Shown: piece after piece, positions 11,142 through 38,990 of the stretch
Layout: every line of letters begins with the position of its first letter
How positions within the stretch are numbered: the first letter of the stretch is position 1
IMG/VR virus record: IMGVR_UViG_3300025617_001484
Coordinates: 1 to 64,000 of that record
Direction: 5' to 3' (one strand)
Origin: a virus
DNA length: 64,000 nt
Program-made: the position numbers and the translations under genes
Notes under the pieces: model-generated
Seen by the model: only the letters and a program-made list of their open reading frames with translations
The model's database searches: none
Told to the model about the DNA's origin: nothing

Positions 11142-12896
11142 CTAGGTATCGAATATAGAGGTATTTTGAGAGGATACCTCGTATACATTTTCATTGACTA
11201 TTAATATGTCTACAACGCCATCTATTAAATGTTTAAATGCTTCAACAGAAGTATTTATAATGGGTTCCCCGTGAACATTAAAAGAGGTATTCATAAGAAC
11301 AGGTATTCCGGTTATGTCGTTAAATTCCAGAAGTATCGGGAAAAAAGGTTTGTTATTTTCTTTGACAATCTGAATCCTCGAGGTGTTATCAAATTTATTA
11401 ATAACCCCAGGTATCTTGTGGACCCATTCGTCCTTTACATTATAACATATAGTCATGAATTGAGAAGCATACTTGGATTTATAGCAATGAAAGGGAATGT
11501 TCTCAAATCCATCCATCACAACAGGGGCAAAAGGCATAACCTCATTTCTGTTTAACCTTCTGTTTACATATTCCTGTGCATCATTCCTTCGCGGATCGAA
11601 TAATATCGAAGTCCCACCAAGAGCTCTTGGACCCCACTCCCTCCGATTTGAAAAAACACCAACAACCTTGCCCATTTCTAAAGATTTGGCAATGTATTCT
11701 GCTGAAAATTTGGAAATAGATAATTCACCAGGTACTTCAGAAACTTTTGTCTCATTACCCCAAAAAACATTGTCTATACTACAGACATCGAACTCTCCCA
11801 ATTCATTTGCCTTAGCTATTGCAGCACCAAGTGCAAGGCCACCGTCGGTCATACCAGGAGAGATAAAGATCTCATCGAATTCTGAAAGCTCGTTTATTTT
11901 TTGGTTAACCTTTACATTAGAAAATAAACCACCAGCAAGAGCTAATTTTTTTATGTGCGGATATTTTTTCTTGATATCCTGTATTGCATCCAAGAAGTAA
12001 TTTTCAGTAAGATATTGAAGCATATAGGAAGCATCCTTCCTAACATTTGAATCCTTTAAATCCAAAGAAGTAAAATAGGAGTAGCATGGTCCGTGATGTT
12101 TCCATTGTAGACTTCCATCATACTTAAAATAATCACCCAAGGAATCATACATTTCTTGGTTGAAAGATCCTTGTGCAGCTAAGCCTACGATCTTACCCTC
12201 GTCCTTACCACCAAACATCCCGCATAAATGACAAAATGAATTCCAGAAGGCAGCTATCGAATCAAAACCTCTTACCTCCTCCTTCATGGTAAGATTACCT
12301 TCGCTTCCAATATACAGAGAAGCCCTACAACTACTCTGGGTATGCTCTGGTTTATACCACCATGAATCCTCCCATATTTGCAACTGACATGGAAGATCTT
12401 CGGATTTTTTTGCTACTTTGGCTAATTCTATCCATTCCTCCTCAGGGACATCTGGTTCTCTCCTAGGTAAAGATTGACCTCTTATCTTTTGAAGTACACT
12501 AGCATCCAGCACACTGTCAGAAATACCATTGCCATCTCCACCATCGTAAGTCAAAACAAGAGTATCCTCACTGAATCCCGAAAGGTAATAAGCTGTACAT
12601 GCGTGTGAATAGTGATGTCCGTATAGGAAGATATCCTTTTTTTCCACTATTTTCTCCAGGTAATCCAAACCACATAGAACTGCTTTAGGCATAACTACTA
12701 TCACATCATCATCAAACGGGGATATTCCTACATCACCTAATGCTTTCAACGAGTAGTCAGGAAAAGCAAATTGGTTAAATACACCCTTAACTCTTTTAAA
12801 CCTTTCTTCCTCAAAAGCGTATTTAATGTTTCCATCCTCAATATAAGCTACACCACAATCGTGTGTAACTGCTGAAATAGACAGTATCTTTGCCAT
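11142..12896 (-). CDS. Carbamoyltransferase, NodU/TobZ/CmcH family
   Basis: A 584-residue enzyme expected to make carbamoyl-adenylate from carbamoyl phosphate and ATP and to transfer the carbamoyl group to a hydroxyl, usually on a sugar or nucleoside. The Kae1-like N-terminal domain has ISAVTHDCGVAYIEDG, EEERFKRVKG, the metal-binding HHYSHACTAYYLSGF and LTYDGGDGNG. The C-terminal domain has the family signature REWGPRALGGTSILFDPR, then RNEVMPFAPVV and NTSFNVHGEPI. The length is typical. The neighbour is a glycosyltransferase (12914-14182), 17 nt upstream in the same direction, so carbamoylation of a sugar on phage DNA, virion protein or host glycan is plausible. The acceptor cannot be read from the sequence. 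Confidence 0.94.
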   Translation of the reverse strand: MAKILSISAVTHDCGVAYIEDGNIKYAFEEERFKRVKGVFNQFAFPDYSLKALGDVGISPFDDDVIVVMPKAVLCGLDYLEKIVEKKDIFLYGHHYSHACTAYYLSGFSEDTLVLTYDGGDGNGISDSVLDASVLQKIRGQSLPRREPDVPEEEWIELAKVAKKSEDLPCQLQIWEDSWWYKPEHTQSSCRASLYIGSEGNLTMKEEVRGFDSIAAFWNSFCHLCGMFGGKDEGKIVGLAAQGSFNQEMYDSLGDYFKYDGSLQWKHHGPCYSYFTSLDLKDSNVRKDASYMLQYLTENYFLDAIQDIKKKYPHIKKLALAGGLFSNVKVNQKINELSEFDEIFISPGMTDGGLALGAAIAKANELGEFDVCSIDNVFWGNETKVSEVPGELSISKFSAEYIAKSLEMGKVVGVFSNRREWGPRALGGTSILFDPRRNDAQEYVNRRLNRNEVMPFAPVVMDGFENIPFHCYKSKYASQFMTICYNVKDEWVHKIPGVINKFDNTSRIQIVKENNKPFFPILLEFNDITGIPVLMNTSFNVHGEPIINTSVEAFKHLIDGVVDILIVNENVYEVSSQNTSIFDT

Positions 12897-12913
12897 AGAA
12901 TTGCTATTAGACT

Positions 12914-14182
12914 TTACTTGGATTTTTTGCTTTTTAACATCTCTGCCTTCTGAGCAGCTGCTTTCCTGTAATGATCAAGATTTTTAAGTATTCTATTTCT
13001 TTCATTCTCTGGTAGTGTTGGAAAGAAATCCATCTTTATAATAGCCTCAGTTTTTTCAAAGGCAACCTCAGGATTTCCAGTGTGGAAGGCAGATAATGCA
13101 TATTCATCCAAAAGTCTCCATTGCCAAACTTCTGGTTCGACAAATAGAATATCAGATGTGCCTGGATTTTTTGTTGCCATATTACCATAAGTAAAAGAAA
13201 GAACCCATCTTCCCCTCTCCCTAAGTTTTCTCATTACGTGGAAAACTGCTTCGAGCCTTTCTGGTCTATATTCCCAAGCACGAGAGTAAGCTTGTATAAC
13301 TTCATCAGGATGTCTACCAAGTTGCTCCTTTATCTTCCCTATCATGTACATTGAATAATAAACCTCTTCTTCCCATCCACCAGCTTCTATTCTTCTCTCA
13401 TAAGCATCTATAGCCTTAAGCTTTTGCCCAGAGTCTCTGTAGCTTTGAGCTAGATAAAACATATATCTAGCATTTTCAGGCTCATCTTTTAGTGCTTTTT
13501 CCAGAATCTCCGCATCGTTTGCATATTTTTCCTCCAGACTATTGGCTCTTTTAAGAGGGCTGATATCTGCATCCACGTGACATCTATCCGATGGTATTTG
13601 ATACTGTATTAATTGTTCCTTACCAGGCAAATCCAAATATTCATGAAGTACCCCTTTATAAACCCAATCCTGATCTGACTTTACAATCTGAGCACGGTGA
13701 TATTGTAAATTATTTAACCTATAGAGGATTTGAAAACAGTCTACGTCTTTTGGCAAACTATGAAATGGGTTTACTCCATTATTAGGGGACTGGAAAGTAT
13801 CATCCGCATCGATTATCCATCTATAATCACACTTTCCCTTTGACAGTTCCAAACTTTCAGTACGGTTTACTTCAAAATTAACCCAAGGTCTTTCGTGAAC
13901 CTCTCCCTCAATACCTAGATCCTCCATAGTTGAATTGATCTCATCAATTGTATTGTCAGAAGAACCGGTGTCGACTATTACGTAGTATGAAATATATGGA
14001 GCAACCTGGGTCAAACACTTTCTTATGGTATCACCCTCGTCCTTTACTATCATCACCAAACATAAACTTATGCTTTGTTGGCTTTGATCAGAATTATTAA
14101 GATTCTGGGAATGTGTTAATTTTTTAGATGATGATTGCTTGGAAATCTTTGTTGATTTTTTCTTTTTGGTTTTAGATGCCAT
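12914..14182 (-). CDS. Family 2 glycosyltransferase with C-terminal TPR-like repeats
   Basis: A 422-residue protein. A Lys/Ser-rich N-terminal tail of about 35 residues precedes a GT-A/GT2 domain: SLCLVMIVKDEGDTI, VIVDTGSSDNT, and the nucleotide-sugar/metal-binding IDADDTF (DADD at 125-128). The C-terminal half is helical with TPR-like repeats (NARYMFYLAQSYRDSGQKL and following). This architecture is known in bacterial and phage glycosyltransferases that modify proteins or glycans. It is followed 17 nt later by the carbamoyltransferase, and the two probably act on the same acceptor. A GATATAAATAG element upstream resembles the late promoter. Confidence 0.9.
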   Translation of the reverse strand: MASKTKKKKSTKISKQSSSKKLTHSQNLNNSDQSQQSISLCLVMIVKDEGDTIRKCLTQVAPYISYYVIVDTGSSDNTIDEINSTMEDLGIEGEVHERPWVNFEVNRTESLELSKGKCDYRWIIDADDTFQSPNNGVNPFHSLPKDVDCFQILYRLNNLQYHRAQIVKSDQDWVYKGVLHEYLDLPGKEQLIQYQIPSDRCHVDADISPLKRANSLEEKYANDAEILEKALKDEPENARYMFYLAQSYRDSGQKLKAIDAYERRIEAGGWEEEVYYSMYMIGKIKEQLGRHPDEVIQAYSRAWEYRPERLEAVFHVMRKLRERGRWVLSFTYGNMATKNPGTSDILFVEPEVWQWRLLDEYALSAFHTGNPEVAFEKTEAIIKMDFFPTLPENERNRILKNLDHYRKAAAQKAEMLKSKKSK

Positions 14183-14942: not shown

Positions 14943-15363
14943 CTTTATCTTTTATTCTTTTCCAGGAGTAGTCTGTATCTAGCTTAAAGTGGCCATAATA
15001 TGGTATTTTTCTTCCCCACTCCCGTGGTGATATTAAGCTTGAAAAAACTTCACCTTTAGAATTTTCATAGAGATATATCTCAGTTCCTATATGTGCTTCA
15101 AAGGACATGTTAGAATTCCAAACAAGCTCGTTATCCTCAAACTCCTTAAGTAGAGAAGAGATCTGTTCTTTGATCTCTTCAGCTCTTTTTCCAAATTTAT
15201 GATTTGAGTTGGCTGCTGCTCTTTGTTTAAATAGAGAAAGTCCAGATATATCTATTTTCGGAGAGGAAACTGAAGTAGCATATGGCTTAAGAAAAGCGTC
15301 ATATTTTCCACTTTCCTCATCATAAATAATACTATCAGGAAGTTTTTTCTTTTTTTCCTTCAT
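14929..15363 (-). CDS. DUF2452-like protein
   Basis: A 144-residue protein. LKPYATSVSSPKID near residue 30, a helical segment with KEQISSLLKEF, then MSFEAHIGTEIYLYENSKGE and ISPREWGR match the general pattern of DUF2452 proteins, which are common in Bacteroidetes and have no known function. It overlaps the adenylate kinase gene upstream by 29 nt and the 233-residue gene downstream by 14 nt. It is useful mainly as a host-lineage marker. Confidence 0.7.
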   Translation of the reverse strand: MKEKKKKLPDSIIYDEESGKYDAFLKPYATSVSSPKIDISGLSLFKQRAAANSNHKFGKRAEEIKEQISSLLKEFEDNELVWNSNMSFEAHIGTEIYLYENSKGEVFSSLISPREWGRKIPYYGHFKLDTDYSWKRIKDKDERS

Positions 15364-16003
15364 CCTTTGATTTGTATTGGAGACCTATCTTATTAAGGAG
15401 CTGTTTATAAACGGTTTCTATTTTCTTAGAAGCATCTATTTTTACGAGTTTTCTGCTTTTCTTGTATTTTTTAATAAGAGGGAGAGTCTTTTCCTTGTAT
15501 TCATTAAACCTTTTGGATATTACCTCAGTATCTTTATCATCATCACGGTTTTCCTTTTCAGATCTCTTGGAAATCCTTTCCTTGGCTTTATCTTCATCCA
15601 AGTCCAAGTAAATAACATGATTAAGTCCTACTCCCATTTTCCCAAGCAAAGAATCCAACATCTTGGATTGCTTAACATTTCTCGGAAATCCGTCAATAAT
15701 AATTCCTTTCTCAAGATCAGCTTTACCTAATGCTTTTCTTAACATCCTTACCATGACTCTATCTGGTATGAAGTCGCCTTTTTTTACAATCTTCTTAAGC
15801 TCCTCGTCTTCTGAATTACGTATAAGGTCCCCAGTAGAAATGTGTGTAAAGTCATTTTTGTCCACTAACCTCTTAGATATAGTTCCCTTACCAGAACCAG
15901 GAGGTCCCAGAATAACAAGGATTTCTCCCTGCTTATCTGGTATTTCCCTTTCGTTTATATCGTCTTTGTTTACAAAGCTCTCAAAATTTTTAACTTTATT
16001 CAT
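15335..16003 (-). CDS. adk: Adenylate kinase with N-terminal capsid-targeting-like extension
   Basis: A 222-residue P-loop nucleoside monophosphate kinase (ATP + AMP to 2 ADP). The Walker A motif is GPPGSGKGT (33-41), with THISTGDLIR for AMP binding, IIDGFPRN, and a short LID lacking the zinc cysteines. About 26 residues precede the first strand, which is longer than usual, and they read KVKNFESFVNKDDINE: the tag shared by other proteins here, ending in I-N-E. The kinase may therefore be packaged in the virion head and trimmed by the prohead protease. It lies in the nucleotide-metabolism operon just downstream of nrdA. Confidence 0.93.
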   Translation of the reverse strand: MNKVKNFESFVNKDDINEREIPDKQGEILVILGPPGSGKGTISKRLVDKNDFTHISTGDLIRNSEDEELKKIVKKGDFIPDRVMVRMLRKALGKADLEKGIIIDGFPRNVKQSKMLDSLLGKMGVGLNHVIYLDLDEDKAKERISKRSEKENRDDDKDTEVISKRFNEYKEKTLPLIKKYKKSRKLVKIDASKKIETVYKQLLNKIGLQYKSKDEGKKEKTS

Positions 16004-26700: not shown

Positions 26701-26708
26701 TATATATC
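26701..26708 (-). promoter_or_regulatory. GATATATA late-promoter-like element
   Basis: GATATATA overlapping the TGA stop of the ligase-NMNAT gene and 19 nt before the GTG start of the tagged 26142-26681 gene. Confidence 0.55.
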
Positions 26709-28620
26709 AGGATTTGACACTCGTAACTAAATCGTTGTAAAGGTTTGAAACCTCCTTAGTTACCATTTTCTTAAACTTTGAGAAATCTTCGTCCTCTATA
26801 GCATTTCTCACCTCTGTACCACTAGTTACTCTAGGGGTTTCTACTATGTCAAGGGCATCACTAATTTTGTCTTTTATGTCAGACATCTTAATGTAGTCGA
26901 TCTGCTTTGTGTAATCGTCTATTCTATCGGGACCAGCTCCGATTAAATGTGGATCATATCCCATATCTATAAGCTTAGCAATTGCAGAGCCTAAAAGACC
27001 TCTATTTACGATCATGTACCCGTCAATTTCCTCGTTACTATCAACAATGGCATCCATGTATCTACGTATAGATTGTTCATCAAACGGGGATTTACCAGAT
27101 TTATTGTGACCTGGGTATACCACAACAGCATATGAATTCATATCATTCTTATCCTTAAGCTCCTTTGCCATCTTTAAGTGACCCAAGTGGAATGGCTGGA
27201 ATCTTCCCATTATAACATTAACAGGTTTCAGTTCTTCTTTGCTCTCTTCCTTAATAAGATCTACCTCTTTGGGGATTTCCTCATTATCAATTGTTTCCAG
27301 CTTGCTAATAAATTCCTGGTATGAGAAGAAAGGGTCCTCGTTGGTATCAGCTTCCTCGTCTTCTTCCTGTAGATAATCTACAGAAGGTGAATTTTCTCTC
27401 CGGAACTCATCAAAGCTAACAAACTTGGACTCATTAACATTCTTAGGTTTCTTTATATAATCCTTAATATCCTGTATCAAAAGATTTATTTGATCCTTCA
27501 TACCGGATGTAACTATACCACCAGCTCTTGTCTTAATCTTTCTAAAAGAATTTAGAATGAGCTTGTATAATGATTCAAAGGATTCATCCTTCTCCACATA
27601 TTTTAAAACCCTTCTATCTTTAACTTTATCCCGATTAAGCCTAAACTCATCCCTTTTTAGATATTCAGGTTCTTCAAAATCAGTACCTTTATATTTTTCT
27701 GAATACTCATCCAAAAACTTAACAAAGACATCACTTATAAACGAGATGTATCTTTCATCCTCCGATTCTCCATTAACTTCAAATTCCGCAAGCCCTTTCT
27801 CCAATATAAAGTTCATTACATCCAGCAATGTAATGCCCAAAAAATCGGAAGGCTTTTTACCTTTCTTGTCAGCAAATTTTTTCTTAGCAATCTCGGTAAA
27901 TATCGGATCTACCATCTTGGCAAGAACTGTATCACTATCCCCATCCAGTTCACCAAATCTAAAAACTATTCCCTCAACATCTTTGTCAAGATCGTCATTA
28001 AGAGCTGTTTTAGTTAATTCTGGATTAAGGGTCTTAATTATATAGCGAACGAAAGATTGGGTTTTGAATTTTTCTACAAGCTCCTTGAAAGGGGTATTTA
28101 GAAATTCCATTAAATCAGACTTTTGATCTTCGTTTAATAATCCCTGGAAAATAATAGGAGGTCTTTCAACACCAAGAAGATCAGACCAGTCATTCAGCTC
28201 GTTCTCATCCTGTATGGTTCTCTCTATTTTTCCACCAGTTCCCATTTTATGAATATACGAAAGAATTAAATTGTTCTTCGGTAGTCTATCATAAACAATC
28301 TCAACAGGTTTTTTGTTAGCAAAATATTCTAATCCAAACCTCCACCCACGTGGTATTTTTTCTAGTATGTTAGGGGGTAGGGATTCTATATACTGAATAG
28401 GTTTCTCGTAATACTTCATTAAAGTACGATCTACCAGAGTTATCGGATTTCTTTGATCCCTTCTATAGAATTTAAAATTTCCAGTCTCCTTGTCCCTTTC
28501 AAAGGAAAAAGCAGATCCGTCCATCTTTTCGTTTATAGTTACAAACTGACTAAAGAGCTGACTTACAAAGTCAGATCCTTTCTTGTTATAAATATCGTAT
28601 AAGTGATTAATTCCAGCCAT
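26707..28620 (-). CDS. Fusion: nucleic-acid ligase-like nucleotidyltransferase + NMN adenylyltransferase
   Basis: A 637-residue two-domain protein. The N-terminal domain has ligase motif I with the likely adenylated lysine in INEKMDGSAFSFE (Lys32), plus downstream RFGLEYF and DVEGIVFRF segments like motifs III and IV of RNA/DNA ligases. The C-terminal domain (about 466-637) is an NadM/NadR-type NMN adenylyltransferase: IMGRFQPFHLGHLKM and the terminal VTSGTEVR. The acidic linker (about 394-465) contains two tag-like segments, FVSFDEFRREN and FFSYQEFISKL. It may join nucleic-acid repair to NAD+ supply, and could be cleaved between domains. A tagged nucleotidyltransferase gene lies two genes upstream (29076-29987). 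Confidence 0.88.
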   Translation of the reverse strand: MAGINHLYDIYNKKGSDFVSQLFSQFVTINEKMDGSAFSFERDKETGNFKFYRRDQRNPITLVDRTLMKYYEKPIQYIESLPPNILEKIPRGWRFGLEYFANKKPVEIVYDRLPKNNLILSYIHKMGTGGKIERTIQDENELNDWSDLLGVERPPIIFQGLLNEDQKSDLMEFLNTPFKELVEKFKTQSFVRYIIKTLNPELTKTALNDDLDKDVEGIVFRFGELDGDSDTVLAKMVDPIFTEIAKKKFADKKGKKPSDFLGITLLDVMNFILEKGLAEFEVNGESEDERYISFISDVFVKFLDEYSEKYKGTDFEEPEYLKRDEFRLNRDKVKDRRVLKYVEKDESFESLYKLILNSFRKIKTRAGGIVTSGMKDQINLLIQDIKDYIKKPKNVNESKFVSFDEFRRENSPSVDYLQEEDEEADTNEDPFFSYQEFISKLETIDNEEIPKEVDLIKEESKEELKPVNVIMGRFQPFHLGHLKMAKELKDKNDMNSYAVVVYPGHNKSGKSPFDEQSIRRYMDAIVDSNEEIDGYMIVNRGLLGSAIAKLIDMGYDPHLIGAGPDRIDDYTKQIDYIKMSDIKDKISDALDIVETPRVTSGTEVRNAIEDEDFSKFKKMVTKEVSNLYNDLVTSVKS

Positions 28621-32480: not shown

Positions 32481-32711
32481 TTAAAATAATTCGTTGCCTT
32501 TTTTCTTATTAGTATTTTTTCCCAATTTTATTTCCTTTACAGAAGATTTTCTTAGCCTCGGATTTCCTATATCTATATTAACCTTCTCTATCTCCAAGGA
32601 TTCGTCACCAATACTTGCAAGAAAAGTAACAGGGAATTTCAGATCACCGTTATTTTCATCTAATCCTTCTTCCCATTCTTGGGTTTGGTCTATAGTTGGC
32701 ATATCAAGCAT
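32481..32711 (-). CDS. Unknown small protein
   Basis: A 76-residue protein with an acidic start (TQEWEEGLDENNGD), a beta-rich middle and a basic Lys/Asn tail. It overlaps the primase gene by 8 nt upstream and ends 1 nt before the uvsY-like gene. Function unknown; a partner in the replication/recombination operon is possible. Confidence 0.6.
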   Translation of the reverse strand: MLDMPTIDQTQEWEEGLDENNGDLKFPVTFLASIGDESLEIEKVNIDIGNPRLRKSSVKEIKLGKNTNKKKGNELF

Positions 32712-33765
32712 ATATGAAATCGGATAAATCGAGAATCTCCTCAGTAAAATAATTATCCAATCTCTTTATTTTGATCCTCTTAGCACGGAGGTAGTTTACA
32801 AGATCGTTTAAATCCCATTTCTTATTTATCGGAAGGTCGTGATCAACTAAAAATTTCTTCCAGTTGAACACTTTTTTTCCATCGGATAAAAGTTCCGAGT
32901 GTTTTTGTCTTCCTGCCCTATCCCAGTCATACCAGTATTGTACATTCTCAACGTCAAACGGGAATTTGTTTTCTATAGAGCACAAAGCCACCGAATTTTT
33001 CCAAAGCCAAGAATCCATGGGTCCCTCAAAAATTGTTATGGTTCTATCGAAGGATATTCTACCAACATTGAAAACAGAAGACACTGGATCAATTTTCTTT
33101 GCCTCTTCTATAAGGTTAAGGTCTTTGGTCTTTAGTAATTTTTCCCATATACCACTAAGCTTATACGTATAATACTTAGATCCGTAGTTTGAATCCATGT
33201 TTCTGAACTGGAGCCCTAATATCTCATTATCCTTAGTAAGATTAAATAAATACAGTTTACCAGTCTCTGGGTCCCAAGCAAATTTTTCATCCGCCTGCTG
33301 ATTTCTTCTTATGAGGTATCTTTCAATTTTAGATCCAGCAACTTCTTGCAATTTCATAGATTCCATAAAGAAATCTCTTGGAATAACTACGGACTTAAAA
33401 TCAGTGTCGAAGAAAAATGCTATATCAACATCTCCATAGGTGGTTTGTCTCTTCTCCTTTCCCTTTTTTATAAGATCTATAATATCCCTTTTTTCGTCTC
33501 CTTCTAGCTGTGAAGCTATATGAAAGTCCCTGAATAGTGAATAAGCATCCTTATAAATGCCGCATCCTCCATTATAACATTTGTATGTAAGAGTATCTAT
33601 GTAGAAGTTACCTCTTTTTTTCCTAGAAGTAGTACTATCACCACAATAGGGGCAAGAAATATTTAACCTATTTCCCGCTTCATAAATGTTTTGTTTCCCA
33701 GGATTACCAGCAAATTCTTTCCTTAAAATACCACCTAAAAGCTCCTTTATTCTTACAAGATCCAT
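32704..33765 (-). CDS. 61: DNA primase (T4 gp61-like)
   Basis: A 353-residue primase. The N-terminal zinc-binding motif is ISCPYCGDS...KCYNGGCGIYK (four cysteines), recognising the priming site, and a TOPRIM domain follows with FEGPMDSWLW and the acidic WYDWDRAGRQKH. T4 gp61 is 342 residues and works with the gp41 helicase, not seen here. It makes RNA primers for lagging-strand synthesis. It is separated from gp32 by a terminator. Confidence 0.93.
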   Translation of the reverse strand: MDLVRIKELLGGILRKEFAGNPGKQNIYEAGNRLNISCPYCGDSTTSRKKRGNFYIDTLTYKCYNGGCGIYKDAYSLFRDFHIASQLEGDEKRDIIDLIKKGKEKRQTTYGDVDIAFFFDTDFKSVVIPRDFFMESMKLQEVAGSKIERYLIRRNQQADEKFAWDPETGKLYLFNLTKDNEILGLQFRNMDSNYGSKYYTYKLSGIWEKLLKTKDLNLIEEAKKIDPVSSVFNVGRISFDRTITIFEGPMDSWLWKNSVALCSIENKFPFDVENVQYWYDWDRAGRQKHSELLSDGKKVFNWKKFLVDHDLPINKKWDLNDLVNYLRAKRIKIKRLDNYFTEEILDLSDFIYA

Positions 33766-33839: not shown

Positions 33840-34796
33840 TTAGAGATCTGCGTATAGGTCGTCTAGAGACGATGATGTTTCTGGTGCTGGTGGTTGACTA
33901 ATTCCAGATTCTTTCTTAGCCGGCTCTGAGCCTACCTTAGTTGAAGAAGCCTCTTGGTAAAAGTCATTAGAAGAGCTAGTAGAAGATGTTGTAGGAGAGC
34001 TAGTCTGATTAGCTCCTCCGAGTACCTCATTAACTAATCTACCGTCAGGAACTGTGTTTTTAATTACGTTCATAACTCGATCAGCTGTATTTTCGTCCCA
34101 GTCTTTATATTCGAATTGTGTCAAATTATCAGGACCCGTTTTTAAATACTCCATGATAGTATTCATGTCATCCTGATTTTTTTCCATCCTCTTGCCATTA
34201 ATTTCAATAGGTCCTCTATCACCCACAAAAGAACAAAGGTCATAGTTATTCCATTCTCCAACTTTTCTAGTATGTACTGAGAAAAGTTTTCCTTCAAATA
34301 GATCAAAAGGGTTGCACGTGTCTCCATATTCTGGCTTAAGTTGTGCTTCTAACATGTCATTAAGCTTTCTACCAAATTTGAAGATCATTATTTTACCTTC
34401 AATCTCAGGGTTGTTTTTATCCTGTACAATCTGAATTAAAGAGTAGTAATCTTCTTTTCTAGAAAAGCTTCTTGAAAGTTCCTGATCAGCAGCTGAATGT
34501 GAGTTCTTAAGCTTCCAGAACATGTCCTTAAGAACAGACTTTTTACCAACTGTTGATGGACAGTCTACTGGAAATCCATCGCCTGTGCTTGGATCATTTA
34601 AGTACACGTAGTACTTATGAATTTTTGACTTTGTAGGGTCAACGTGATTAGGAAGAAAACGGATCAAAGATTTATAAACTCCATCCTTCCCGTTTTCGGG
34701 GTATGGTTTGTAAAATTCTGTTCCTTCTGAATTCTCCTTTTTTGTTTTTGTTACGAACGCCTCAGCGTCCAAATTGAAAATGTCTAAATTGCTCAT
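33840..34796 (-). CDS. 32: Single-stranded DNA-binding protein (T4 gp32-like)
   Basis: A 318-residue SSB. The N-terminus is basic/mixed (the B domain role in cooperativity), the OB-fold core has IRFLPNHVDPTKSKIHKYYVY, FPVDCPSTVGKKSVL, SFSRKEDYYSLIQIVQD and KIMIFKFGRKLNDML, and a Ser/Thr/Pro-rich linker leads to the acidic C-terminal tip SLDDLYADL that recruits partners. The T4 zinc-binding His-Cys3 cluster is not conserved; only one Cys remains in the DCPST segment. It coats ssDNA and works with the UvsY, UvsW and primase proteins encoded next to it. Confidence 0.95.
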   Translation of the reverse strand: MSNLDIFNLDAEAFVTKTKKENSEGTEFYKPYPENGKDGVYKSLIRFLPNHVDPTKSKIHKYYVYLNDPSTGDGFPVDCPSTVGKKSVLKDMFWKLKNSHSAADQELSRSFSRKEDYYSLIQIVQDKNNPEIEGKIMIFKFGRKLNDMLEAQLKPEYGDTCNPFDLFEGKLFSVHTRKVGEWNNYDLCSFVGDRGPIEINGKRMEKNQDDMNTIMEYLKTGPDNLTQFEYKDWDENTADRVMNVIKNTVPDGRLVNEVLGGANQTSSPTTSSTSSSNDFYQEASSTKVGSEPAKKESGISQPPAPETSSSLDDLYADL

Positions 34797-34836: not shown

Positions 34837-35619
34837 CTAAGTGCTCCAAAAGTTTCCCTTAGATTCTATATATCCATAACTTTTTTTAATAATTTCCTCT
34901 CCAACAACCTCAGTTTCCCAAACTTTTTTGCCTCTAAGAGACACTTTTACCAAAGGTCTGGTCAAATTATATTCAGAGGATTTGATATGATGTCTTAATA
35001 GTGTCTCGGGATGGAAATAGATACCAGATAAAATATACTCTTCCATAAAATCAAACATCATACAGTAATATTCCATAGAGTCCCTATCTCCCCATGCAAA
35101 GATGTCATTGACTCCTCCCTTCCAATCATAACCAGGTGGAATACGGATAGTGTTTAGGTTAGAATCCAGAGGAATATGATTGTGTATTTTGATATCCATT
35201 CTTCCCTTTATTACATAATCATACCTTTCACCCAAGAGGTCTTCATACTCTTTCATCAAAAGGAATGCTTGCTTTATCTTATACCACATCAAGAAAACAG
35301 ACACTGGGTTAATCTCTCCTGTTTGTGGTCCAAATTTTTCATAGCTCCAAGCTTTTTCTATAAGGGAGCTAATACCAGCAGATTCAAAATCATCAGTTTT
35401 TAATGACTTTGGAGAATAAAGTTTAACAAGGGTATCAATTGACAACGTGTCAGTGAGGTGTTGCGTTTCTGCGTGCAAAGACCCATTGATGGAATCTGAA
35501 GGGTTCCAGGTGGAAATAAAAACATCAGCATTAAATCTATCCAATATCCTTCCCTTTATGTAGGGATAGGTATCACTAGCTTCCCTAATTTGTCCAGGTA
35601 GGAGGAGAGCAACTTTCAT
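34837..35619 (-). CDS. Glycosyltransferase-like protein, last gene of the RuBisCO-like operon
   Basis: A 260-residue protein with a Rossmann-like start (MKVALLLPGQIREASDTYP), FNADVFISTWN, a helical segment LMWYKIKQAFLLMKEYEDLL and YDYVIKGRMDIKI, where the RxD motif stands where GT-A enzymes carry DxD. I recognise this as a family found in phages, cyanobacteria and pelagic bacteria that looks glycosyltransferase-like but is not biochemically characterised as far as I recall. Its start overlaps the phosphodiesterase-like gene by 4 nt, so it belongs to the same operon. Confidence 0.65.
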   Translation of the reverse strand: MKVALLLPGQIREASDTYPYIKGRILDRFNADVFISTWNPSDSINGSLHAETQHLTDTLSIDTLVKLYSPKSLKTDDFESAGISSLIEKAWSYEKFGPQTGEINPVSVFLMWYKIKQAFLLMKEYEDLLGERYDYVIKGRMDIKIHNHIPLDSNLNTIRIPPGYDWKGGVNDIFAWGDRDSMEYYCMMFDFMEEYILSGIYFHPETLLRHHIKSSEYNLTRPLVKVSLRGKKVWETEVVGEEIIKKSYGYIESKGNFWST

Positions 35620-36056
35620 CGATATAAAGAGATGTAATCAGAGCAAATCCCATAGCATCCTTCTACGGGATCCTCATAAACTTCAGGCAAAACAGCAATA
35701 CTGTTTTTAATTGGTTGATTACCTGGATAAGCCCAAACAAATCCCCCCGTGGTTATTGTTACGAGGTCGCTTTGGTGCCAAAAAACATTAAGTGTGGGAT
35801 AATCCTTAAGATAAATTAAAGCTGGTATATTTTTGCAATGAACCCAAAGACTTTCACTTCTTTTCAGGAGCCACTCGAGGGTTATTTTATTTTCGGGAAA
35901 GTCATGTCCAAGATAAATTGACGTACCGTCTATCCATACGTCAATCTCAACATCGTAACCCGAATCCAGTGCTTCCTGTATATAACAAGTTGTATTTTCC
36001 CTGCCTGGATCTGGTCCGTTAATATTTCCTCTATGAGAAATTAATTTCGACATCAA
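35616..36056 (-). CDS. Glycerophosphodiester phosphodiesterase/PI-PLC-like protein
   Basis: A 146-residue protein with the TIM-barrel GDPD-like N-terminal signature LISHRGNINGPDPGRENT, the metal-binding YDVEIDVWIDGTSIYLGHD, LWVHCKNIPALIYLK and VFWHQSD. It is about half the length of a normal GDPD, but matches a short family with the same core motifs. It might hydrolyse a phosphodiester on a glycan, glycerol- or sugar-phosphate. Both ends overlap neighbouring genes by 4 nt. Confidence 0.75.
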   Translation of the reverse strand: MMSKLISHRGNINGPDPGRENTTCYIQEALDSGYDVEIDVWIDGTSIYLGHDFPENKITLEWLLKRSESLWVHCKNIPALIYLKDYPTLNVFWHQSDLVTITTGGFVWAYPGNQPIKNSIAVLPEVYEDPVEGCYGICSDYISLYR

Positions 36057-37288
36057 AAAATTCTATAATCTAGATCCGGTGAAAACTTTCTCTTACCCCA
36101 CTTCTCTATAGCTGCTAAATACTCCTCACCTTCCAGATCTCCATTTATAGATTGTTTCATAGCTAAAGCTCCCGCTCTAGTTCCCATTGGATGACCGTGC
36201 ATTGCTCCACCTACGTTTGCCATCCAATCCACACTACTAAGTGTTTCGTTGATATATTCAACCAGACCCGGGTGCATACCACAGCTTAGTGCAGAAACTA
36301 TATTATATTTCCAAAGAACTTCTAAAGCATCCCTTATCTCCTCCTCATCCTGGTTCATATATCCACCGACCATTCCAGCATGTATAGAGTCTACTCCAGA
36401 CCAACCTGCAATCTTACATATCACTGGCCAATATATGTGATAAGGTGCCCTCCTGTCAGTAAAGAATTTATCACCACTTTTCTGGAAGTGTATCCAGAGA
36501 TTTGGATTCTGTTTACGGATCGCTCTATAAACTCCAAGACCGCTCCACACGTTTATATGAATACCATTACCACCGTTATCAGCAACAAATTTTGCCCTCT
36601 CAAGTGCATATGGGCTATCGCCATTTATACAAAAGCAGTATATAACGTCGGGTGCATTCTCTTTCAACCAAGATGTTATTAGTGGTACTCTTTCTTCGAG
36701 AGGACAGTGGGATGGATTAGCTAGAAGTTCGTCCTCTTTTATAAAGTTAACACCACCATACACCATCTCCTTCACAGCTTCTAGTAGTATCTCAGGAGAC
36801 ATCCCGACCTTAGGCTTTATTATTCCACCAAAGAAGGGTTTTTCATATACCGAGTTGAACTTCCTAAATCCATCTATTCCGTATGCTGGCTTCAATCTAA
36901 AATTTTCTTCCACCATTTCGGGTAAAGTTATGTCCAATACGTTACATTTTTCAATCTCTTCTATATCAACCTGACCGCCAGCTATGTGACATAGGATCTG
37001 AGAAATACCATCTTCCTCCAAATTAATATTTTCAAGAGGAAATGCAATTTTCACAATGCCCTCTTTTAATTTAGAAAGTTCCTCCTCGTTGGCCAAGATA
37101 AAGCAACTATGATCCATAAACATCTGGTCTGTTTCCCAGACACTCCTATTATTTGGATTTCCTATGCTTTGACCTATGGCTAAGTTCCATGAGGCTTCTC
37201 TCAAAGATCTTTTTGAGCCCAAAAAATAAGTTACTATAAAATATTTTTCGAGTGATATCTGTTCAGGTTCTACAAAAATACTTATCAT
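36053..37288 (-). CDS. RuBisCO-like protein (form IV type), in a phage
   Basis: A 411-residue RuBisCO large-subunit homologue. Conserved from RuBisCO: GGIIKPKVG (Lys158, Lys160, equivalent to K175/K177), the carbamylation and Mg site FIKEDE (Lys184, Asp186, Glu187, equivalent to K201/D203/E204), His267 (H294), His303 in SIHAGMVGG (H327), Ser335 and the phosphate-binding GGAMHGHPMGTRAGA (360-374). Altered: loop-6 Lys334 is Tyr310, R295 is Phe268, H298 is not His, and the N-terminal E60/T65 are lost. It should therefore enolise a sugar-phosphate-like substrate with Mg but not fix CO2. It overlaps the cupin and the phosphodiesterase-like gene by 4 nt each. The substrate is unknown. Confidence 0.94.
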   Translation of the reverse strand: MISIFVEPEQISLEKYFIVTYFLGSKRSLREASWNLAIGQSIGNPNNRSVWETDQMFMDHSCFILANEEELSKLKEGIVKIAFPLENINLEEDGISQILCHIAGGQVDIEEIEKCNVLDITLPEMVEENFRLKPAYGIDGFRKFNSVYEKPFFGGIIKPKVGMSPEILLEAVKEMVYGGVNFIKEDELLANPSHCPLEERVPLITSWLKENAPDVIYCFCINGDSPYALERAKFVADNGGNGIHINVWSGLGVYRAIRKQNPNLWIHFQKSGDKFFTDRRAPYHIYWPVICKIAGWSGVDSIHAGMVGGYMNQDEEEIRDALEVLWKYNIVSALSCGMHPGLVEYINETLSSVDWMANVGGAMHGHPMGTRAGALAMKQSINGDLEGEEYLAAIEKWGKRKFSPDLDYRIF

Positions 37289-37608
37289 TCAACTATAAAT
37301 TTATCACCAGGTACTGATGGTGTTTTTACTATAAATACTTCGCAATCTTCAAGGAACACCGGATCTGCTATCTCATCTTTCCTTAAAATAAAGATATCCC
37401 CACCATTCAATTCCTTTCCCTGTATAATCATCTTACCGGACCTAAGGAAATTTATTTCATCCGCCTCTTTATGATAATGTTTTGGCCAGGATTCTCCTTT
37501 AGAGTGATGTTTATAACAGATTTCAAAATCTTCTGTTTGATATGCGACTGGGGAAAAGTTTCCAGCATACCATCCACCTTTCATATCTTCTATTTTAAAA
37601 ATTTCCAT
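37285..37608 (-). CDS. Small cupin protein
   Basis: A 107-residue single-domain cupin. Metal-binding motif 1 is PKHYHKEADEINFLRSGKM (HxH and Glu), followed by GGDIFILRKDE; motif 2 lacks the usual His. Small cupins of this kind act as sugar isomerases or epimerases or bind acids. It overlaps the RuBisCO-like gene by 4 nt and the nucleotidyltransferase gene by 14 nt. Its role in the same pathway is inferred from coupling. Confidence 0.85.
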   Translation of the reverse strand: MEIFKIEDMKGGWYAGNFSPVAYQTEDFEICYKHHSKGESWPKHYHKEADEINFLRSGKMIIQGKELNGGDIFILRKDEIADPVFLEDCEVFIVKTPSVPGDKFIVE

Positions 37609-38341
37609 CTTTAACGAGTTTTAAATAATATTCTAGATCATCTGGAGTTCCTATTGGAAAGTGAAGATTATAGAAATAAGGGAGGATTTTCTTTCCCTTT
37701 TTAATCATATAATTATAAGTTGGTGCAACATAGAATTCGTTGTTATACCTATCGTTGCATGATACCATCTCTTCAGCAGATTCAACAAAACAAGAGCCTC
37801 TTTTCCATAAGTGCAATCCATTAGTTGCTATATTGGATATAACTATCTTCTCCTTTACCTCACAAACTTCGCCATTCGGGTCAAGTCTTACGTAGCTATT
37901 CTTCTTAGAAGATGAGAGAAAACAGCCTAAAAGTCCATCACATCCGGTCGTTTCAACAAATCTAATTATATTATCCAGATTAAAATCCCCAATGATCTGA
38001 TCACAATTTATAACTATAAGAGGATCCGAATTATCAATAGCTTCTTTTGCTACCAGGACAGTTGATGCAGGTCCTTCAGTAAGCTTATCTACAGAAAAAA
38101 CACTTCCATCCACACAGATTTCAGAAATGTGATCTTCAAAATCAGAAATAGAAACATACTCCTCGTTTACAACAAATATAAAATTAGCAGAGGGATGCTG
38201 TAAATTTTTGATCACCGACTTTATCATCGATTCACCATTTACATCAATAAAAGGCTTTGGCTCTTTATACCCAGCATCTGAAAATCTTTTACCCGCTCCT
38301 CCAAGGGGTATAAGAATATTAATCTTCTTTGATCTTATCAT
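37595..38341 (-). CDS. Sugar-phosphate nucleotidyltransferase-like protein
   Basis: A 248-residue GT-A-fold nucleotidyltransferase. INILIPLGGAGKRFSDAGYK carries the GGxGxRF nucleotide-binding loop, EPKPFIDVNGESMI the catalytic Lys region, and VINCDQI the metal-binding Asp; GTPDDLEYYL is typical of the C-terminus. I start at the ATG of MIRSKKINIL; a more upstream start adds a Cys-rich extension that overlaps the upstream gene. It likely activates a sugar-1-phosphate to an NDP-sugar, and leads the operon that contains the RuBisCO-like gene. Confidence 0.86.
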   Translation of the reverse strand: MIRSKKINILIPLGGAGKRFSDAGYKEPKPFIDVNGESMIKSVIKNLQHPSANFIFVVNEEYVSISDFEDHISEICVDGSVFSVDKLTEGPASTVLVAKEAIDNSDPLIVINCDQIIGDFNLDNIIRFVETTGCDGLLGCFLSSSKKNSYVRLDPNGEVCEVKEKIVISNIATNGLHLWKRGSCFVESAEEMVSCNDRYNNEFYVAPTYNYMIKKGKKILPYFYNLHFPIGTPDDLEYYLKLVKDGNF

Positions 38342-38990
38342 ACAAGTACAAACAAATCCAGGTTGAGTCAATTATATCATCGAGAGGCTTATTTACGTTT
38401 CCCGATGGTGTTATCCACTCATCCTTATTTTCTTCAAGTACTTTAGTAAAAGATCCTAAATTAGTTTCTGTGAAATTTCTTTCAATAAGAGAACTGTAGA
38501 GCTCGTGTTTTTTTGCATTTCCCTTATATGCAAACTTTTTAATAGATGTTGGAGAAAAAACATGGAAGTTCTCGCTTCCGGTATGATCAACTATTTTTTT
38601 TCTAAGAAGTGCGGTTGCCATAGAAATATCAATAAGAGCATTTCCGTTAGAGGCAAAACTTAGGCCCTCCATAGCAACTATAATATCATCTCCAGAACAT
38701 ATGTTTTCAATCTCAGACCAGAAAGAATCGACTAATTCCTGGAAGTAATCTATTTTAATCCTTTCCCTTTCTGAGTATTCGTCTGGAAGCTTACTTTTTC
38801 CCATAAACATTAGTACAAAATCACCACTCTTATCTTCGGAAAGAACTGAATATGGCTTCTTCGAATTTTTCTTGAGCGATTCCGCTGTCCTTTCGCTCCG
38901 GGTTAAAGATCCCCAGGTAAATTCATTTTCTTTAAGTATACAAAAAGCGGGTGAGTTAAGGGAAAAATCTATTCCAACTAATGTTTTCAA
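38319..38990 (-). CDS. RuvC-like Holliday-junction resolvase/RNase H-fold nuclease
   Basis: A 223-residue protein starting at TTG (28 nt after the GATATATA element at its outer edge). RNase H-fold acidic residues are visible: VGIDFSLNSPAF (Asp), IVAMEGLSFAS (Glu) and KPLDDIIDSTWI (Asp pair), in the order of RuvC-type resolvases. T4 uses the unrelated gp49 for junction resolution, so this is a probable replacement. Its end overlaps the nucleotidyltransferase gene by 23 nt, so it is part of the RuBisCO-like operon transcript although its function is DNA-related. Confidence 0.82.
   Translation of the reverse strand: MKTLVGIDFSLNSPAFCILKENEFTWGSLTRSERTAESLKKNSKKPYSVLSEDKSGDFVLMFMGKSKLPDEYSERERIKIDYFQELVDSFWSEIENICSGDDIIVAMEGLSFASNGNALIDISMATALLRKKIVDHTGSENFHVFSPTSIKKFAYKGNAKKHELYSSLIERNFTETNLGSFTKVLEENKDEWITPSGNVNKPLDDIIDSTWICLYLYDKIKED

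Follow-up and report, generated by a model that had tools for sequence, protein, structure and literature searches.

Here, we describe a RuBisCO-like protein (RLP) encoded by a T4-like phage, together with the gene cassette in which it lies. The window analyzed comprises 64,000 nucleotides (positions 1 to 64,000) of the 72.8-kb IMG/VR record IMGVR_UViG_3300025617_001484, and the RLP gene occupies positions 36053 to 37288 on the minus strand, encoding 411 amino acids (aa) from an ATG start. Pfam domains (PF00016/PF02788), predicted structure, phylogeny, and an active-site residue table identify the product as a RuBisCO homologue from a poorly characterized clade that has kept the metal site but replaced essential carboxylation residues. 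Because the RLP genes of this clade lie mostly among surface-sugar genes, the protein probably produces a sugar-phosphate of an unusual kind that serves to decorate glycans. Our favored reading of the sequence data, held with modest confidence, is that RLP would be an active member of a non-carboxylating clade, i.e., a Mg-dependent isomerase or enolase acting on a phosphorylated ketose and feeding a nucleotide-activated sugar or (poly)ol into surface-glycan decoration.

An intact gene of the RuBisCO superfamily

The RLP open reading frame (ORF) is intact and shows homology to the RuBisCO large subunit across its whole length. A Pfam search of the protein matched the TIM-barrel domain (PF00016; 9.4e-33, 114.2 bits) and the N-terminal domain (PF02788; 2e-5, 25.2 bits), both above their curated cut-offs. 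Likewise, a phmmer search of the PDB matched many RuBisCOs and RLPs, weakly but clearly (best E, 2e-33), and an AlphaFold2 model built from 66 relatives (pLDDT 94.0, pTM 0.91) retrieved a form III RuBisCO as the top Foldseek match (TM 0.84), with RLPs at a TM of about 0.8. Both domains and the fold thus make the phage RLP a member of the RuBisCO superfamily. None of the NCBIfam equivalog models reached its cut-off, the best being rubisco_III (164 bits versus a cut-off of 497); the models for OiaX (NF042437) and MtnW (TIGR03332) gave 120 bits versus 700 and 90 bits versus 514, respectively.

When compared with seven close relatives, the RLP gene differed at 0.11 to 0.15 of non-synonymous sites and at 0.77 to 0.87 of synonymous sites, the latter being saturated. 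The low level of non-synonymous relative to synonymous differences indicates that the gene is under strong purifying selection, and is neither a chance ORF nor degraded.

The active site retains residues of the enolization half of the RuBisCO reaction

We aligned the phage clade (81 viral and 21 cellular relatives) with RuBisCO and RLP references and tabulated the active-site residues. The Mg/carbamate motif K184-E185-D186-E187 (K201-x-D203-E204 in RuBisCO) was invariant in the 81 viral proteins and present in all cellular members. K158/K160 (K175/K177) and H303 (H327) were also retained, as were, like in bona fide RuBisCO, the S379, G381, and G403 positions (RuBisCO numbering), and G360 was intact in nearly all of about 100 clade members. 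Retention of K177 sets the clade against the other RLP types checked, in which this residue is lost. The four residues by which bona fide RuBisCO is recognized were replaced by others that are themselves nearly invariant in the clade, namely, loop-6 K334 by Y310, H294 by Q269, R295 by K270 (a conservative change), and H298 by D273; the same holds for N123, which is now Q106. In addition, T65/W66 became N44/P45, in a loop now reading N44-P45-x-x-R48 with E52, and E60 became G39 (a position matched by eye in the alignment). In nearly all of about 100 members, Q269-K270-S271-G272-D273 and Y310 thus stand in for the CO2-handling set. The residues replaced at the H294, R295, H298, K334, and N123 positions are ones that handle CO2 and the P2 phosphate, and the clade is classified as RLP, form IV in the broad sense, i.e., a RuBisCO homologue without essential carboxylation residues.

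In the RuBisCO mechanism, the retained residues belong to the enolization half of the reaction and the lost ones to the carboxylation half. With the former kept and the latter gone, we infer proton-transfer chemistry for the phage RLP. A first-pass annotation of the window had noted K184, D186, and E187 as kept, Y310 at the K334 position, and R295, H298, T65, and E60 as lost; our residue table agrees on every one of these positions and supports the enolization or isomerization that it had put forward as the likely chemistry.

Loss of several canonical catalytic residues could also mean that RLP no longer catalyzes a reaction and is a paralogue with a structural or regulatory role. We consider this very improbable, as the metal site and the new residue set are conserved in about 100 proteins from several phyla under strong purifying selection, a pattern that suits an enzyme with changed specificity. 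Even harder to credit is a functional RuBisCO that supplies the infected host with fixed CO2, the role in which viral rbcL genes are often annotated and have been reported (PMC12615777). The best family match is indeed type III RuBisCO, and archaeal form III enzymes (PDB 3a12, 8dht, and 2cwx) share with the phage protein the fold, K175/K177, K201-x-D203-E204, H327, and the phosphate-site residues. However, identity in the Foldseek alignments is 23 to 28%, and the clade as a whole carries other residues in place of H294, R295, H298, K334, N123, and T65/W66. Moreover, we saw neither a small-subunit gene nor one for phosphoribulokinase near RLP, and all bona fide RuBisCO references fall outside its clade. 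On this residue set, the phage RLP cannot plausibly fix CO2.

A separate clade shared by uncultured viruses and cells

In a maximum-likelihood tree, the window RLP formed one clade (support, 100/100) with 24 other viral and 21 cellular proteins, apart from the form I, form III, II/III-type, MtnW, OiaX-type, and photosynthetic RLP references, form II being represented by one II/III-type sequence only. Three loci (L104 to L106) encoding ordinary form III-like RuBisCO, with HRxxH and K334 present, served as the outgroup. The tree thereby bears out the first-pass annotation in calling the protein RuBisCO-like rather than RuBisCO. On the basis of tree, residues, and model cut-offs, we reject the MtnW, OiaX-type, IV-Photo, and bona fide RuBisCO identities. 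A very divergent RLP on Vibrio nigripulchritudo plasmid pVNTG1 (L145, 1360-2505) sits on a very long branch, such that its position is unsure; it is flanked by split transketolase genes on one side and an FGGY kinase on the other, a setting unlike the other RLP contexts seen.

These results also bear on whether the phage could carry RLP as an auxiliary metabolic gene for catabolism or methionine salvage (MtnW, IV-Photo, or acid-sugar type). The weak profile similarity of RLP to the MtnW and OiaX models speaks for this. MtnW, the DK-MTP-1-P enolase of form IV-YkrW, is likewise a non-carboxylating homologue with the Mg/carbamate triad and an assumed enolization. Yet the scores lie far under the cut-offs, the phage clade is separate, and MtnW departs from RuBisCO at the K177, R295, H327, and K334 positions, with letters that are not those of the phage clade, and is accompanied by methionine-salvage partner genes. 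Neither mtn genes nor four-carbon-acid kinase genes were seen near RLP among the neighbor clusters inspected, whereas the acid-sugar RLP references have an adjacent kinase. We therefore rate such a role as improbable.

The first-pass annotation had implied that an RLP of this kind is rare in phages, which did not hold. We found 88 IMG/VR relatives by close query and at least 171 contigs by profile, and 24 matches in GTDB genomes, 21 of which have the active-site signature in common. The 21 cellular carriers include SAR11, Crocinitomicaceae, Patescibacteria, Verrucomicrobia, Elusimicrobia, Azospirillum, and Legionella, as well as Pacearchaeota, Nanoarchaeia, and Woesearchaeota, with DPANN among them. 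Viral and cellular copies are partly interleaved within the clade, which suggests transfer between viruses and cells. One SAR11 copy (L092) adjoins pheT-like and lepA-like genes (named by eye from sequence), indicating that the cellular copies are not merely phage contamination. No relatives were found among 50,697 annotated phage records, the protein had no PHROG match, and its model had no match of good TM in BFVD.

RLP lies in a coupled cassette of a T4-like phage

Within the window, RLP belongs to a run of five overlapping head-to-tail genes encoding a nucleotidyltransferase (NTase), a cupin, RLP, a protein like glycerophosphodiester phosphodiesterase (GDPD), and a 260-aa protein, inserted between genes for RuvC and gp32. 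The other cassette genes and their phage flanks are as follows.

37595-38371, minus strand: NTase, for a sugar- or polyol-phosphate (PF00483, 1.9e-12)
37285-37608, minus strand: small cupin, 107 aa (phrog_24762), directly upstream of RLP and overlapping its start by 4 bases
35616-36056, minus strand: mini GDPD-like phosphodiesterase, 146 aa (profile match to 7e0v)
34837-35619, minus strand: 260-aa conserved protein (phrog_13607)
38319-38990, minus strand: RuvC-like Holliday junction resolvase (phrog_159), phage flank of the cassette
33840-34796, minus strand: gp32-like single-strand DNA-binding protein (PF08804, 1e-12; phrog_224), phage flank of the cassette
32704-33765, minus strand: DNA primase, a T4-like replication gene (phrog_47), phage flank

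According to the ORF coordinates, successive genes overlap by 14 (NTase/cupin), 4 (cupin/RLP), 4 (RLP/GDPD-like), and 4 (GDPD-like/260-aa ORF) bases. The likely NTase start is the ATG at 38338. The contig also carries genes for topoisomerase II subunits, NrdA, NrdB, a UvsW-like helicase, DNA polymerase, a baseplate wedge subunit, and a connector protein. A bacterial contig is ruled out by the topoisomerase II, NrdA/NrdB, UvsW-like helicase, gp32, primase, DNA polymerase, and baseplate wedge genes. The T4-like phage and the coupled operon of the first-pass annotation both stand. The nearest relatives of the UvsW-like helicase are in uncultured huge phages (44%) and then in Prevotella Lak phages (34%), which hints at a Bacteroidota host.

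The NTase profile gave its best PDB match to the nucleoside-diphosphate-sugar pyrophosphorylase 4evw (6e-33). Its matches were broad, covering thymidylyl-, guanylyl-, uridylyl-, and cytidylyltransferases, and single out no particular nucleotide. Among the cupins matched by the cupin profile was a chain labeled mannose-6-phosphate isomerase (E, 1e-3), and the cupin is possibly a sugar-phosphate isomerase or epimerase. The GDPD-like gene had no Pfam match; the first 55 positions of its profile matched 7e0v, a glycerophosphodiester phosphodiesterase (2.8e-5), the best Foldseek match of the protein was a GDPD, albeit weak, and H8-R9-G10, E20, E37, D39, and H51 were invariant. The cluster of the 260-aa protein occurs in 48 loci, including SAR11, and by context this protein may be glycosyltransferase-like.

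We then counted neighbors in 51 dereplicated viral and 15 cellular loci, taking genes within three genes of RLP as near. The NTase was near RLP in 44 of the 51 viral loci and 11 of the 15 cellular ones (adjacent in 8), the cupin in 46 of the viral loci, and the GDPD-like gene in 41, with a GDPD near in 9 cellular loci. In viral loci, near NTase, cupin, and GDPD-like genes were always on the RLP strand, and across viral and cellular loci together the NTase shared that strand in all but one; most cassette genes overlapped or lay a few bases apart. The position of the cassette differs from phage to phage. RLP and NTase distances correlated (r=0.63; 0 of 2,000 permutations as high), indicating that the two genes travel together.

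The mini GDPD-like gene is found in at least 175 viral contigs. Where RLP is absent, it is accompanied in 40 of 60 loci (from L167 to L246) by a HAD-NTase fusion of 450 to 460 aa, a pattern that would fit NTase-cupin-RLP serving elsewhere as an alternative means of supply. The pairing of GDPD-like gene and fusion in these loci is another uncharacterized phage glycan module.

Several other genes of the window were recorded. At 11142-14182 (minus strand), the phage has a further pair of carbohydrate-modification genes, for a Nol-like carbamoyltransferase (PF16861/PF02543) and a GT2-type glycosyltransferase. A phage adenylate kinase (15335-16003, minus strand; PF00406, 3.9e-39) lies beside ribonucleotide reductase. 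An unusual 637-aa fusion (26707-28620, minus strand) joins an RNA-ligase-like N-terminal part (under the Pfam cut-off) to a cytidylyltransferase-like C-terminal domain, possibly with a role in nucleotide/NAD metabolism or RNA repair.

Surface-glycan surroundings and the proposed supply line

The wider phage neighborhoods of RLP contain nucleoside-diphosphate-sugar epimerases, UDP-GlcNAc 2-epimerase, UDP-glucose dehydrogenase, FkbM and TylF methyltransferases, and GT2 enzymes. Similarly, the SAR11 copies neighbor O-antigen ligase (Wzy_C), GT61, GT17, and RmlD, and a divergent LicD adjoins the RLP-NTase pair in each of three Legionella species; known members of the LicD family transfer phosphocholine-type groups. 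A standard GDPD occurs in one archaeal and one verrucomicrobial RLP locus. The link of the cassette to glycans is thus well supported. In one phage group (L024, L026-L028, L030, and L034), transaldolase-like, RibB-like, and kinase-like genes (by eye from sequence) lie near the cassette. RibB is 3,4-dihydroxy-2-butanone-4-phosphate synthase, and these genes may be a clue to the precursor sugar of the cassette.

The neighborhood (NTase, cupin, GDPD-like, and glycan enzymes) also supplies the pathway that the first-pass annotation had left unnamed, in which, on the simplest reading, the RLP reaction would be one step in providing an activated building block. With K184 carbamylated and Mg bound, RLP would remove a proton from the carbon adjoining the carbonyl group of a phosphorylated ketose. 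The enediolate would then be reprotonated elsewhere, making the enzyme an isomerase, epimerase, or tautomerase; a new substrate is plausible. In most phages, the cupin could carry out a second isomerization. The NTase would then link the phosphorylated product with a nucleotide, after which a transferase would put the sugar or (poly)ol-phosphate onto the glycan. The GDPD-like enzyme would make or trim a phosphodiester, such chemistry being suggested by GDPD together with LicD. The phage would use the product to change either the surface of its host or the glycan of its own virion.

Several observations weigh against this scheme. The NTase is not within three genes of RLP in 4 of the 15 cellular loci (several of which are short contigs), most cellular RLPs have no adjacent cupin, which hence is not essential to the step, the functions of the cupin and the GDPD-like protein rest on weak profile matches, and a shared glycan locus is no proof of shared substrate flow. 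The main rival is a glycan-linked RLP with other chemistry in the same pathway, in which a sugar-acid or keto-sugar phosphate would be decarboxylated, dehydrated, or split in a retro-aldol reaction. The RuBisCO fold does such chemistry in OiaX-type decarboxylases (2018 work cited in PMC6302742), which act on sugar phosphates in acid-sugar catabolism (PDB 3nwr), and the glycan neighborhood fits equally well. However, OiaX-type RLPs keep H294, R295, and K334, all three replaced in the phage clade, the tree distance is large, and they adjoin four-carbon acid sugar kinases, whereas the phage clade adjoins NTases in biosynthetic loci; no acid-sugar kinase gene was seen beside the phage RLP. We consider this rival unlikely, and retain proton transfer on a phosphorylated ketose as our preferred reading.

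Relation to known RuBisCO homologues and significance

As a kind, RLPs are already known, for instance MtnW and the OiaX-type decarboxylases described in PMC6302742. Global Ocean Sampling (GOS) yielded 65 RuBisCO homologues in new groups (PMC1821046), which by their description resemble the phage clade as marine metagenomic homologues outside the known forms; the passages on them give no genomic context or phage link. Given its SAR11 members, the phage clade likely overlaps with these groups. It is possibly IV-GOS, which we take to be the later name for the GOS clade of RuBisCO homologues. Viral rbcL genes from landfill (PMC12607003; its protein grouped with "RbcL-like" proteins) and soil (rbcL1; PMC12615777) are both listed as carbon fixation; as described, they resemble the phage RLP in being RuBisCO homologues in viral contigs, and are presented without active-site or cassette analysis. 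As the soil rbcL1 is reported to carboxylate, it is probably something other than the phage clade. In the open-access literature, we found no publication describing an RLP in a phage glycan cassette.

Although widespread in uncultured viruses, the clade is absent from the annotated phage collections that we searched, so that surveys of viral auxiliary genes can easily take its members for CO2-fixation genes. More broadly, we tentatively propose that a branch of the RuBisCO superfamily has taken on an anabolic role with a new reaction, in the making of nucleotide sugars or phospho-(poly)ols, that phages spread the cassette to remodel host or virion glycans, and that some viral "rbcL" carbon-fixation genes may belong to it. 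The Legionella two-gene unit and the SAR11 genomes make RLP function directly testable. In the cited literature, RLPs act in sulfur salvage or in the breakdown of sugar acids. A role in biosynthesis beside nucleotidyltransferases, if true, would give the superfamily a new branch and bring with it a new activated sugar or polyol.
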